Made by a program: the position numbers and the translations under genes
Notes under the pieces: model-generated
What the model was told of the DNA's origin: nothing
The model's database searches: none
What the model saw: the letters and a program-made list of their open reading frames with translations, nothing else
Assembly (NCBI RefSeq): GCF_004216915.1
Contig: NZ_SGXD01000003.1
Location: 690,222-754,221, forward strand
DNA length: 64,000 nucleotides
From: Motilibacter rhizosphaerae
Lineage (GTDB): Bacteria > Actinomycetota > Actinomycetes > Motilibacterales > Motilibacteraceae
Reading direction: 5' to 3'
In this document: piece after piece, positions 9,021 to 42,645 of the stretch
How the letters are laid out: each line of letters opens with the position of its first letter
How positions within the stretch are numbered: the first letter of the stretch is position 1

Positions 9021-9998
9021 CTACGCCGCGCCGTCGAACAGGCTGGTGACCGACCCGTCGTTGAAGACCTCCTGGATCGCGCGTGCGAGCAGCGGCGCGA
9101 TCGGCAGGACCGTGAGCTTGTCGAACAGCCGCTCCGGCCCGATGGGCAGCGTGTCGGTGACGACGACCTCGGAGATGCGGCTGTTCTTCAGCCGGTCGAC
9201 CGCCGGGCCGGAGAAGATGCCGTGCGTCGCGGTGACGATGACGTCGGCGGCGCCGTTCTCGAACAGCGCCTCGGCGGCCTTCACGATCGTGCCGCCCGTG
9301 TCGATCATGTCGTCGACCAGCACGCAGGTACGGCCCGCGACGTCACCGACGACCTCGTGCACCTTGACCTCGTTGGCGATGTTCGGGTCGCGGCGCTTGT
9401 GGATGATGGCCAGCGGCGCGTTGAGCGTGTCGGTCCAGCGCTCCGCCACCCGCACGCGGCCCGCGTCCGGGCTCACGATCGTGAGCCGGCTGCGGTCGAC
9501 GCGGCTGCCGACGTGGCGGGCCAGCGTGGCCAGCGCGAACAGGTGGTCCACGGGCCCGTCGAAGAACCCCTGGATCTGCGCGGTGTGCAGGTCGACGACG
9601 ATGAGCCGGTCGGCGCCCGCGGTCTTGTAGAGGTCGGCCATGAGCCGCGCGGAGATCGGCTCGCGGCCGCGGTGCTTCTTGTCCTGCCGGGCGTAGCCGT
9701 AGAACGGGATCACCACGGTGATGCGCTTGGCCGACGCGCGCTTCAGCGCGTCGATCATGATGAGCTGCTCCATGATCCACTGGTTGATCGGCGCGGTGTG
9801 GCTCTGGATGACGAACGCCTCCGAGCCGCGCACCGACTCCTCGAAGCGGACGAAGATCTCCCCGTTGGCGAACTCGAACGCCCGCGTGGGCACGAGGTCC
9901 ACGCCCAGCTCGCGGGCCACCGCCGAGGCGAGCTCGGGGTGCGCCCGCCCCGAGAACAGCATCAGCTTCTTCTCGCCCGCCGCCGTCATGCCGCTCAT
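9021..9998 (-). CDS. prs: Ribose-phosphate pyrophosphokinase (PRPP synthetase)
   Basis: 325 residues, full length for class I enzymes. It makes PRPP from ribose-5-phosphate and ATP for purine, pyrimidine, His, Trp and NAD synthesis. The ATP-side segment '[18 protein letters not shown]', the flexible-loop '[15 protein letters not shown]', the cation/PP-binding '[12 protein letters not shown]' and the PRPP-binding loop '[12 protein letters not shown]' are all present. The start ATG overlaps the glmU stop (ATGA), so the two are co-translated. In mycobacteria and Streptomyces rplY and pth usually follow prs; here the downstream neighbour is the decayed GT locus, so synteny is broken on this side. 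Confidence 0.97.
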
Positions 9999-28318: not shown

Positions 28319-28825
28319 CTAGGTGCTGCCGCCGGCCTGCCGAGCCGCCGCGCTCCGCTCGTGCCGGCGCAGGTGCTGCTGCAGGAGCGGAGCCGTCCGG
28401 TAGGGCACGAGGTCGCGCAGCAGCACCACGGTGCTCGTCCGCTGGATGCCCGGGCAGGCGAGGATCTGCTGGCCCACCCGGTAGAGATCCTCCGGGTCCG
28501 CCGCCACCACCCGGCAGACGATGTCGCCCTCGCCCGTCGTCGCCGCCGCCTCCAGCACCTCGGGGATGGCGCGCAGCCCGCGGACCACGGAGGCCAGCTC
28601 GGCCTGCGCCACCTCGGCCGTGACGAGGGCGGCCACGGCGTACCCGAGCTCGCGGGGCGGCACCCGCTCGGTGTGCGGGCGCAGCACCCCCTCGAGGCGG
28701 GCGAGCCGCGTCTGCACCGTCTTGCGGGCGAGCCGCAGCCGGGCCGCGAGCTCCACCACCGGCGAGCGCGGGTCGCTGTCGAGCGCGAGCAGGATCCGCG
28801 CGTCCGTGTCGTCCAGCATGCCCAC
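28319..28825 (-). CDS. Lrp/AsnC-family transcriptional regulator
   Basis: 168 residues. N-terminal winged HTH ('LDDTDARILLALDSDPRSPVVELAARLRLARKTVQTRLARLE') and a C-terminal RAM/ASNC domain ('GEGDIVCRVVAADPEDLYRVGQQILACPGIQRTSTVV'). Such proteins form octamers and respond to amino acids or their derivatives. It is transcribed divergently from a 2-keto-acid decarboxylase, and a near-perfect 18-bp palindrome lies between them, so it probably controls that gene in response to an aromatic or branched-chain amino acid. Second ATG at codon 3 is an alternative start. Confidence 0.9.
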   Translation of the reverse strand: MGMLDDTDARILLALDSDPRSPVVELAARLRLARKTVQTRLARLEGVLRPHTERVPPRELGYAVAALVTAEVAQAELASVVRGLRAIPEVLEAAATTGEGDIVCRVVAADPEDLYRVGQQILACPGIQRTSTVVLLRDLVPYRTAPLLQQHLRRHERSAAARQAGGST

Positions 28826-28928: not shown

Positions 28929-30608
28929 ATGGACCTCACCGTCGGCGGCTACCTCGGGGCGCGGCTGCGCCAGTGCGGCGTCGGGCACCTGTTCGGGCTG
29001 CCGGGGGACTACTCGATGGCGCTGCTCGACGAGCTGCTCGCCACCGGGCTCGACTGGGTGGGGACGACCAACGAGCTCGGTGCGGCGTACGCCGCCGACG
29101 GCTACGCGCGGCGGCGCGGCTTCGGCGTGGTGGCGACGACGTTCGGCGTCGGCGAGCTGTCCGCGCTCAACGGCGTGGCGGGGGCGTACGCCGAGTCGGT
29201 GCCGCTGCTCGCGCTCACCGGCGGGCCGGCCACGAGCGCCGTCGTGGCCGGGACGCCCGTGCACCACTCGCTGCTCGACGGCGACCTCACCCGCTTCAGC
29301 CGGGCGTACGCCGAGGTGACCGCCGCTGCCGAGGTGCTGGCGCTGGACACCGCGGCCGAGCAGATCGACCGGCTGCTGCAGCTGGCGCTCGACGAGCTGC
29401 TCCCCGTCCACCTCACCGTGCCGTGCGACGTCGCGGTCGCGCCGGTGCAGGGCGCCGAGCGCCTGGCACGTCCTCTGGTGGCGCGCTCGTCCGACCCCGA
29501 GTCGCTGGCAGAGTTCGAGGAAGCGCTGCGCCACAGGCTCTCCTCGGCACAGCCGGTGGCCCTCTCCGGGCGGCTGGCGGTGCGTACGGGCCTGCGGGGG
29601 GAGGTCCGCGCGCTCGCGGACGCCGGGGTGCCCGTGGCGACGCTGCTCGACGCGAAGGGCCTGCTCGACGAGGCGCACCCGTCGTCGCTGGGCTGCTACG
29701 TCGGCGCGCTCTCCCCCGACCCCGCCGTCGTCGCACCGGTGGAGGACAGCGACTGCCTGGTGGTCGTGGGCGCGGTGCTGTCCGACCTCGTGACCGGCAT
29801 GTTCAGCGCGCACCTCAAGCCCGCGGTCACGCTCGGCCTGCACGAGGCGCAGGTGGGCGAGGTGGCGTACCCGCGGGTGGAGCTGCGCGACGCGGTGGCG
29901 GCGCTGGTGCGGGTGGCGTCGGGAGCGGCCGCCTCTTCCCCCCAGTTGATCGGGGGCCTCGATCAACTGGGGGTCCGGACTGGTCCATCTGCTCGGGACG
30001 AGCCCGCGTCGATCGAGGACCCCGATCAAACGGGCCTCACCCAGGAGGCGCTGTGGCGCGAGCTCGCGGCCTGGCTCCCGCCGGGCGCGCTCCTGGTGGC
30101 GGACGCCGGCAGCGCGTACTTCGGGGCGGCCGGGGTCGCACTGCCGGCGGGGGCCGAGCTCGTCGGCCAGCCGGCGTGGGCCTCCATCGGCTGGACGATC
30201 CCCGCCCTGCTCGGCCTCGCGGTCGGCGGTGACGACCGCCCGCTCGTGCTCGTCGTCGGGGACGGCGCGGCGCAGCTCACCGTGCAGGAGCTCTCGACCG
30301 TCCTCGCCCGCGGGTTCGCGGGCACCGTGCTGCTCCTCGACAACGGCGGCTACACGGTCGAGCGGGCGATCCGCAGCCCGGAGGCGGCGTACCAGGACAT
30401 CGCCCGCTGGGACTGGCGTGCGCTCGTCCGAGCGCTCGCGCCCGGCGTCCGCGTCGAGACCGCGCTCGTCGAGACGGCCGGCGAGCTGCGGCAGGCGCTG
30501 CGGTCAGGAAGCGCTGGTACGCCGCGCTTCCTCCAGGTCGTCCTCCCCCGCGACGACACCCCGCCCCTGCTGCAGGGCATCGCCCGCGGGCTCGGTGCGG
30601 CGCACTGA
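28929..30608 (+). CDS. Thiamine-diphosphate 2-keto-acid decarboxylase (KdcA/IpdC type)
   Basis: 559 residues. Catalytic Glu E49 in 'TTNELGAAYAADGYAR', the HH pair in 'GTPVHHSLLDGD', and the ThDP/Mg motif GDG (444-446) ... N472 in 'GDGAAQLTVQEL...LLLDNGGYTVER' match indolepyruvate and branched-chain keto-acid decarboxylases more than pyruvate oxidase. It converts a 2-keto acid to an aldehyde plus CO2 (Ehrlich-type catabolism or indole-acetaldehyde synthesis). Odd: residues ~338-367, in the linker before the C-terminal ThDP domain, are encoded by two copies of a 21-bp palindrome and the DNA between them. The divergent AsnC regulator is the likely controller. Confidence 0.9.
   Translation: MDLTVGGYLGARLRQCGVGHLFGLPGDYSMALLDELLATGLDWVGTTNELGAAYAADGYARRRGFGVVATTFGVGELSALNGVAGAYAESVPLLALTGGPATSAVVAGTPVHHSLLDGDLTRFSRAYAEVTAAAEVLALDTAAEQIDRLLQLALDELLPVHLTVPCDVAVAPVQGAERLARPLVARSSDPESLAEFEEALRHRLSSAQPVALSGRLAVRTGLRGEVRALADAGVPVATLLDAKGLLDEAHPSSLGCYVGALSPDPAVVAPVEDSDCLVVVGAVLSDLVTGMFSAHLKPAVTLGLHEAQVGEVAYPRVELRDAVAALVRVASGAAASSPQLIGGLDQLGVRTGPSARDEPASIEDPDQTGLTQEALWRELAAWLPPGALLVADAGSAYFGAAGVALPAGAELVGQPAWASIGWTIPALLGLAVGGDDRPLVLVVGDGAAQLTVQELSTVLARGFAGTVLLLDNGGYTVERAIRSPEAAYQDIARWDWRALVRALAPGVRVETALVETAGELRQALRSGSAGTPRFLQVVLPRDDTPPLLQGIARGLGAAH
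29939..30029. repeat. Palindromic element translated in-frame inside the decarboxylase gene
   Basis: Holds two copies of a 21-bp palindrome family: 29946-29966 (arms TTGATCGGGG / CCTCGATCAA, embedded in a perfect 14-bp inverted repeat 29939-29952 / 29960-29973) and 30009-30029 (TCGATCGAGG / CCCCGATCAA), separated by 42 bases. Each copy matches the perfect palindrome at 42480-42500 in 19 of 21 positions. The frame stays open through the whole element and encodes an interdomain linker. Confidence 0.8.
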
Positions 30609-30622
30609 TCCGCCCGCTCGGC

Positions 30623-30679
30623 GATCGAACAGGGTGCCCCAGTGTGCGTCCGACGCGCACTGGGGCACCTTGTTCGATC
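30623..30679. terminator. Long hairpin between convergent decarboxylase and rsmA
   Basis: 22-bp arms (30623-30644 and 30658-30679) with one mismatch around a 13-base loop that is itself partly self-complementary. The arm core GAACAGGGTGCCCCAGTG resembles the hairpin at 54764-54812. It serves as terminator for both convergent genes. Confidence 0.75.
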
Positions 30680-30701
30680 CCGCCGGGGGGTGCCCGGAGG
30701 T

Positions 30702-41118: not shown

Positions 41119-42390
41119 TCACCACAACCCCCTGCTGGTGCCGGGGTTGCGGTCGGTGGCGTGCGTCGCGGGGACGGGTGGGCTGCCGTCGGGTGGTCGC
41201 CAGCGGAGCAGTCCTGGTCGGCCGGGGTCCGGTTCGAGCTGCCAGCCGCCCTGGTGGAGCAGGTGGTGGTGCCTGCTGCAGAGCAGGCACATGTTGGTGA
41301 GGTCGGTGGGGCCACCGTCGGACCAGTGGCGGATGTGGTGGGCTTGGACGCGTCTGTTGCGGCAGCCGGGGGCGATGCAGCCGCCGTCGCGTACCCAGAG
41401 GGCTTTGAGCTGGGCCTTGGTGGCGAGGCGGGTCTCGCGGCCCAGGGCGAGGGGCACTCCCGGAGCCACCGTGACCGGCATGTCGTGCGCCGGACGGTCC
41501 GCGTGGGGGCTGAGGGTCGTGGTGAGCAGCACGGCGACGTTCGCCGTGCAGGTGAGGTACTCCAGCTCCTCGGCGGTGAACGCGGTGCCGAGGATCGCGC
41601 TGATGCCGGTCCTGCCATCACCCGGCTGCAGCTCGTCGCGCAGGGTGGGCAGGTCGACGACGAGGGTCGTGTCGAGCCTCGAGCTCGTCACGCCCGGCTC
41701 GGTGGCGAGGAACGTCTGGGCGATCTCGACGAGCGCGTCGGCCTGCCGCTGAGCGGCAGTGCGCGGGTCGACCTGCTCGCCCGGCTCCGGGTTGGGCTGG
41801 GATCCGGCGCGGATCGCCTTCTGCAGCAGCAGTCCCTCCGCCTTCGGGAGTCGGCCGGTGATCTCGACCGTCTCGTCGAAGCCGGGAGAGAGCAGGAGGT
41901 AGCGGCTCTCGTGGATCCGCTGGGCCTTCTCCTCCCGCGACTCGTCCGCGCCGACGGCCTCCTCGAGACGCATGACCGCGGCCCGGACGTCCGCTGGTGC
42001 AGCAACCTTCGCCAGCGGCAGCAGGGTCTCCTCGGCCTCGAGCATGACCTGCGGGCCGAGCCGCTTGTGCCCAGCCGCGAGCTCGTCGACGTGCCTCGCG
42101 CTTATGACGCCCTCTGCTAGCGCGGCGGTCATGTGGGGGAGGTCGCGCAACGCCCGAGCAGCGGTGACCGCTCGCCGGGCGTCGAGGGAGTCCATGCGGG
42201 CGTGGTGCCGCAGCCACGCCTGCGCCGTCACCTGGTTGTCGAGCACGAACTCGCCCGCGGCGTCGAACGCCGCCAGCTCCGCCAGGAACTCCGCGTGCAG
42301 GCGTGCGGCCGCGGCCTGCTTCTCGAGCAGCGCGACGCCACGCGCCGACCCCGAACGGGGGTCGCGCGAAGGCTGGCTGCTCGAGGTCAT
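41119..42390 (-). CDS. DUF222 / HNH endonuclease protein (13E12 repeat type)
   Basis: 423 residues from ATG 42390; the open frame upstream has no better start and no clear ribosome-binding site. N-terminal ~300 residues are the helical DUF222 domain. The C-terminal HNH nuclease has 'CIAPGCRNRRVQAHHIRHWSDGGPTDLTNMCLLCSRHHHLLH' features: paired Cys zinc site, catalytic HH, Asn and final His, so it looks active. These genes are numerous in actinobacterial genomes (REP13E12 family in Mycobacterium); their function is unsettled, and a selfish or repeat-linked role has been suggested. Two copies of a 21-bp palindrome lie just upstream of its start. No integrase or transposase accompanies it. Confidence 0.85.
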   Translation of the reverse strand: MTSSSQPSRDPRSGSARGVALLEKQAAAARLHAEFLAELAAFDAAGEFVLDNQVTAQAWLRHHARMDSLDARRAVTAARALRDLPHMTAALAEGVISARHVDELAAGHKRLGPQVMLEAEETLLPLAKVAAPADVRAAVMRLEEAVGADESREEKAQRIHESRYLLLSPGFDETVEITGRLPKAEGLLLQKAIRAGSQPNPEPGEQVDPRTAAQRQADALVEIAQTFLATEPGVTSSRLDTTLVVDLPTLRDELQPGDGRTGISAILGTAFTAEELEYLTCTANVAVLLTTTLSPHADRPAHDMPVTVAPGVPLALGRETRLATKAQLKALWVRDGGCIAPGCRNRRVQAHHIRHWSDGGPTDLTNMCLLCSRHHHLLHQGGWQLEPDPGRPGLLRWRPPDGSPPVPATHATDRNPGTSRGLW

Positions 42391-42479: not shown

Positions 42480-42500
42480 TTGATCGGGGACCCCGATCAA
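42480..42500. repeat. Perfect 21-bp palindrome (copy 3)
   Basis: Arms TTGATCGGGG and CCCCGATCAA around a single A. It lies 90 bases upstream of the DUF222-HNH start. The flank CAACTAGGGCCACCGG resembles CAACTGGGGGTCCGG after copy 1 in the decarboxylase gene, so the homology extends past the palindrome. Confidence 0.8.
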
Positions 42501-42624
42501 CTAGGGCCACCGGCAAGATCTGCATGATCACGGGGAGGGGCGGGTGGGGCGACAATACGAACTGGCTGCCGCCAGCAAAGAATTCCACCCCTGCGTTGAC
42601 CACTTCGTACGGTCAGGCGCCAAC

Positions 42625-42645
42625 TCGATCGGGCAACCTGATCAA
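42625..42645. repeat. Degenerate 21-bp palindrome (copy 4)
   Basis: TCGATCGGGC / ACCTGATCAA arms, 17 of 21 positions identical to copy 3, followed by CAACTT-like sequence (TCAACTT). It lies between the DUF222-HNH gene and rsmI. With copy 3 it brackets about 120 bases of non-coding DNA in which I see no gene. The whole gap 42391-42731 holds only these repeats. Confidence 0.65.

Follow-up and report, generated by a model that had tools for sequence, protein, structure and literature searches.

A ThDP-dependent 2-keto-acid decarboxylase gene of the indolepyruvate/pyruvate type carries a palindromic repeat element within its reading frame in the window analysed here, a stretch of 64,000 nucleotides from Motilibacter rhizosphaerae (Table 1). 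According to Pfam, the TPP_enzyme_N, TPP_enzyme_M, and TPP_enzyme_C domains of the encoded protein flank the palindromes on both sides. Among proteins of solved structure, those closest to it are indolepyruvate and alpha-keto acid decarboxylases, and its best NCBIfam model is TIGR03393, with a score under the cut-off of that model. A regulator gene lies divergent to the decarboxylase gene, and a DUF222-HNH nuclease gene elsewhere in the window has copies of the same palindrome in its leader. Directly 3′ of the decarboxylase stop codon, at 30624-30680, there is a nearly perfect long inverted repeat (GATCGAACAGGGTGCCCCAGTG...CACTGGGGCACCTTGTTCGATC). A similar hairpin with TTCGATC occurs at another locus (L170), and the two may represent another family of 3′-end hairpins.

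Table 1. Features of the window, with positions counted from its first nucleotide. The ends of the 96-bp element are uncertain by a few bases.
Feature	Position	Strand	Remark
Lrp/AsnC-type regulator gene	28319..28825	-	divergent to decarboxylase gene; type assigned by sequence reading
ThDP-dependent 2-keto-acid (indolepyruvate/pyruvate-type) decarboxylase gene	28929..30608	+	carries the insertion; 559-aa protein
96-bp palindromic repeat element (palindrome, hairpin spacer, palindrome)	29940..30035	+	predicted in-frame translation PQLIGGLDQLGVRTGPSARDEPASIEDPDQTG
Palindrome P1, 33 bp with flanks	29940..29972	.	21-bp core 29946-29966
Spacer hairpin module	29973..30002	.	left arm decayed in the decarboxylase copy, compared with intergenic copies
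Palindrome P2, 33 bp with flanks	30003..30035	.	21-bp core 30009-30029
DUF222-HNH nuclease gene, one of eight palindrome-linked	41119..42390	-	Pfam DUF222 and HNH; tree support 100/100
Perfect palindrome copy	42480..42500	.	90 bp before the nuclease gene's start codon
CGTGATCATGCA repeat in the DUF222-HNH leader	42521..42532	-	present upstream of 23 of 27 DUF222 genes
Outer, diverged palindrome (TCGATCGGGCAACCTGATCAA)	42625..42645	.	far end of the DUF222-HNH leader

Architecture of the palindromic element

The first-pass annotation had recorded a pair of 21-bp palindromes inside the decarboxylase gene and a perfect copy near the nuclease gene. All three were found where it had placed them, the pair having 1 and 2 mismatches to the sequence TTGATCGGGGNCCCCGATCAA. 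It had also supposed that the repeat is longer than 21 bp, and this proved correct. When the copies are aligned, the palindrome has a 33-bp consensus, CCCCAG-TTGATCGGGG-N-CCCCGATCAA-CTGGGG, with TTGATCGGGGNCCCCGATCAA as the core, and the pair together with its spacer makes up one 96-bp unit, which is larger and more symmetrical than first described. The whole unit is known from four further loci with an identical period of 63 bp, and the decarboxylase copy is 77-80% identical to these four. Each of the five whole copies is predicted to fold as a single long stem-loop (-57 to -88 kcal/mol, z -3.8 to -9.5), in which the two ends of the element act as terminal inverted repeats paired over most of their length. 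The weakest fold is that of the decarboxylase copy (z -3.8 to -4.1). A search for known RNA families returned only sub-threshold matches to miRNA precursors, which are typical for any hairpin, and a known RNA family was thus rejected.

Register 0 can be read through without a stop on either strand of each of the five whole copies, while the only register closed in every one of them is that which reads the TGA of TTGATC. Since an open register of 96 bp is not unusual at this G+C content, the open register is read as luck and survival, not design.

In-frame insertion in the decarboxylase gene

The reading frame stays open through both palindromes, as had been annotated, and the element adds 32 codons, those of residues 338-369, to the linker between the central and the C-terminal ThDP domains. 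Is this a true insertion? A syntenic orthologue from the same genus is shorter by about 29 residues at precisely this place, and the palindrome family is absent from that genome, which bears out the earlier suggestion of a lineage-specific insert. The synteny is indicated by the divergent regulator, which also adjoins the orthologue (65% identical by tblastn). The orthologue shares 56-62% identity, with 62% and 57% on either side of the element, and the linker without the 32 codons would have 29 residues, compared with 31 in the orthologue as counted from the alignment. The empty site in this one same-genus genome is too diverged for alignment at the DNA level, so that no target-site duplication is visible. 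A deletion in that genome rather than an insertion here keeps a small residual probability, one such genome having been compared, but the whole palindrome family is missing from it.

The codon usage of the insert differs from that of its host gene. Codons ending in A or T account for 9 of 32 in the insert versus 21 of 527 outside it (p=1.3e-5). The GC3 value is 72% in the insert versus 96% in the rest, and every other 32-codon window of the gene has a GC3 of at least 81%.

Among homologues the linker is 31, 46, 61, or 62 residues long. The value of 46 is that of a solved indolepyruvate decarboxylase (1ovm), and 62 is that of an Amycolatopsis homologue, the sole return (at 40% identity) when genome contigs were scanned for close orthologues. 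Such natural variation marks the linker as a permissive site, so its length alone proves no insertion; at the sequence level, the insertion is established by the repeat and by the codon usage. The same variation, together with the Amycolatopsis linker, which is as long and has no palindrome, would be expected if this were an ordinary variable linker whose palindromes are due to chance or serve as binding sites of a regulator. However, shuffling the window 100 times gave 0 matches to the 21-bp palindrome, similar 96-bp copies exist elsewhere, the insert stands out from the gene in its codon usage, and the genome-wide copies described below already contradict this explanation, which I consider extremely improbable.

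A structure predicted from a two-sequence alignment presents the insert as a coil between two helices, in a poor model (mean pLDDT 42) that deserves little weight. The tryptic peptide DEPASIEDPDQTGLTQEALWR of the predicted protein spans the 3′ border of the insert.

Distribution of the repeat

Further copies in the genome, which the first-pass annotation had anticipated, were found in number: 47 matches with up to 3 mismatches at about 35 loci, while a control pattern written backwards gave 0. The repeat occurs as singles and as pairs, the pairs at a spacing of 63 bp. The gene context was assessed with a simple codon-bias gene caller on stretches of 5-6 kb around the copies. Of about 35 loci, only that in the decarboxylase lies within a gene; the others are intergenic. 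Among 16 other loci without a nuclease gene, 13 have the palindrome within 53 bp of a gene 3′ end, mostly at 14-25 bp, and 3 lie between divergent genes. In two places the TGA of the palindrome serves as a stop codon, namely that of a citrate-synthase-like gene with an HTH domain (C2:554233) and that of an ORF without a Pfam match (C1:813439).

Such a distribution raises the question of whether the repeats are functional 3′ ends, that is, bidirectional terminators or RNA stabilisers, which were spread by recombination or conversion and of which the decarboxylase copy is a misplaced one. Most copies without a nuclease gene stand 14-53 bp past stop codons, several of them between convergent genes, and the copies form very strong hairpins, as this explanation would have it. 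On the other hand, it does not account for the three loci between divergent genes or for the eight in the leaders of nuclease genes, at 90-91 bp from the start codon. A working terminator within an open gene would be harmful, and a search for an intrinsic terminator with a U-tract found none at the decarboxylase locus. High identity within one species and absence from the nearest relative fit spreading DNA better. I therefore hold the functional 3′-end explanation to be unlikely.

The palindrome was not found in the same-genus genome or in three other genomes of the order (up to 2 mismatches), nor in 393 other genomes sampled in the class, the same-genus genome included (up to 1 mismatch). On these results, the family is restricted to this species or close relatives of it. 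A phage origin was also considered and rejected, as no exact match to the palindrome was present in viral contigs.

Palindrome-linked DUF222-HNH genes

DUF222-HNH (13E12) genes are abundant in actinobacteria, and to my knowledge they have no settled function. The genome has 27 DUF222 genes. In a tree with the DUF222 genes of two relatives, they include three bursts found in this genome alone (10, 7, and 8 genes). The third burst makes up one side of a branch with a support of 100/100 and has short tips. It was found that all eight of its genes have the palindrome exactly 90-91 bp upstream of the start codon, and that none of the other DUF222 genes has it there. Where the outer palindrome exists, 145-175 bp further out, it bounds the homology among the eight on one side; on the other side the homology breaks off at the stop codon. 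The units thus share the palindrome at their 5′ side; only one of the eight has a palindrome after the gene. Inverted copies of the palindrome-linked leader lie at the two extremities of contig C11 (9569 bp), at 142-162 and 9408-9428. The assembly therefore probably broke in further near-identical copies, and eight genes are a minimum.

The palindrome-linked genes also differ from the others in their upstream regions. A LexA-type box (CGAAC-N4-GTTCG, up to 1 mismatch) is present before none of the eight versus 18 of the 19 other DUF222 genes (Fisher p=4e-6). In total, 18 of 27 DUF222-HNH genes in this genome are preceded by such a box, as are 37 of the 40 sampled in five other actinobacterial genomes, which suggests that SOS control is the rule for the family. 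In one relative (G004), the box is before 0 of 7 DUF222 genes.

The second repeat, CGTGATCATGCA, is nearly always on the coding strand where it precedes a DUF222 gene, and it lies downstream of one. Its longer form, CCCGTGATCATGCAG, has 209 matches in the genome (up to 1 mismatch), concentrated upstream of DUF222 genes. Another genome, G003, has 30 matches to this longer form, including an array with a period of 22 bp (C9:47882-48248), while the other three genomes tested have almost none.

Is the pairing of DUF222 genes with palindromes general across actinobacteria? Dispersed palindromes were not found in the 40 DUF222 upstream regions from the five other genomes. A general pairing was accordingly rejected, and the pairing appears specific to this lineage.

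Candidate mobilisers of the repeat

A Y1/RAYT transposase was considered as the mobiliser, and a search with PF01797 found none in the genome. It may instead be that the DUF222-HNH nucleases move or spread the repeat, with the palindrome in their leader belonging to a mobile unit. The short copies, that of the decarboxylase among them, would then be its non-autonomous descendants, in the way that REPs descend from RAYTs. The fixed position of the palindrome before all eight genes of one clade, and before no other of the 27, would agree with this, as would the single lineage-specific burst to which the eight belong, the extent of the homology from the outer palindrome to the stop codon, the lack of a Y1/RAYT transposase, and the second repeat upstream of most DUF222 genes. 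However, the palindrome could have been a passenger that a single ancestral gene had in its leader before it multiplied. The nuclease unit has no recognisable counterpart of the spacer module in the 96-bp element, other DUF222-rich actinobacteria have no dispersed palindromes in the upstream regions sampled, and I know of no nuclease activity on the palindrome. I regard the idea as possible, though rather doubtful. It can be combined with the explanation of the element given below, since it answers the question of which enzyme moves the repeat.

Discussion

It is very probable that the element is a species-specific, non-autonomous REP/MITE-like repeat which was inserted once, in frame, in a tolerant linker of the decarboxylase. 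A self-complementary hairpin of about 96 bp would have arrived in the gene by transposition. Its length is a multiple of three, one of its registers is open, and the linker already varied in length; thus the frame was kept and 32 codons were gained. The added residues probably form a disordered surface loop, with which the decarboxylase would keep its enzyme activity, and the hairpin has decayed in the gene after the insertion. Elsewhere the repeat sits between genes, mostly just past stop codons, and its transcripts would fold into a strong stem-loop.

In-frame insertion of a repeat is a real but known kind of event, and the present case documents it for an actinobacterium, in which a conserved enzyme has taken in a small palindromic repeat. 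What is new is the palindrome at a fixed place upstream of all eight genes of one DUF222-HNH expansion. This offers a concrete lead on the DUF222-HNH genes, whose three bursts here stand behind dispersed repeats, one of which is the palindrome. Action of the nuclease on the palindrome, if true, would provide a substrate and a mode of spread for a large family of which little is known in terms of function. More speculatively still, and on balance improbably, the DUF222-HNH proteins would be the mobilisers of a new actinobacterial class of small palindromes, a counterpart of the RAYT-REP system, with a palindrome at the 5′ side of the gene, lineage-specific bursts, and scattered short hairpins that can be translated in frame.

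For in-frame palindromes, the first-pass annotation had named Rickettsia as the known case. The comparison is less unique than that, since small hairpin repeats translated in frame are established in Rickettsia, Wolbachia, Neisseria, enterobacteria, Yersinia, and archaea (PMC2229807, PMC10969869), and REPs lie inside genes in several species (PMC3733652). In the part of the literature covered by the search, no report of an in-frame case in actinobacteria was found. A related precedent is that of the mycobacterial MIRUs, which lengthen reading frames at the edges of genes.

The proposed likeness to the Rickettsia palindromic elements (RPEs) holds in part. Like RPEs and their Wolbachia counterparts, the element is a dispersed palindrome of about 100 bp (here 96 bp) which forms one long hairpin, has an open register, and lies in frame in a conserved protein gene. 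The habit of entering genes is not shared: nearly half of the first-reported RPEs are in genes (PMC10969869), whereas the present element is in a gene at 1 of about 35 loci, with two more copies supplying gene stop codons. In R. conorii, RPEs terminate in CGTC (PMC3733652); at the ends of the present element this motif is not conserved (9 of 70 flanks, with sequence compared at the ends only).

REPs typically lie near gene 3′ ends (PMC3733652). The repeat resembles REPs and REPINs in having palindromes of 20-40 bp, as singles and pairs, mostly near gene 3′ ends and occasionally in genes. As in the REP/REPIN-RAYT systems, one set of palindromes adjoins a multiplied nuclease-type gene, here DUF222-HNH. 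Unlike them, it has no GTAG tag (1 of 70 flanks) and no Y1/RAYT gene in the genome. MITEs such as Correia/NEMIS, ERIC, RUP, and YPAL are small non-autonomous hairpins, some of which are translated in frame (PMC2229807), and the present element is likewise a small non-autonomous hairpin with terminal inverted repeats.

The nuclease genes linked to the palindrome are of the same DUF222-HNH kind as the REP13E12/13E12 family of Mycobacterium tuberculosis. DUF222-HNH is a multicopy family, some members of which are LexA-linked (PMC4181829, PMC10589994). The palindrome-linked clade differs in its lack of LexA boxes, and the accounts of 13E12 covered here make no mention of small palindromic satellites of this kind.

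With rare residence in genes, neither CGTC nor GTAG at its ends, and no RAYT, the repeat is filed only as a new family of small palindromic repeats. On this comparison, it would act like an RPE at the decarboxylase site and is distributed like a REP; it is likened to an RPE rather than identified as one.
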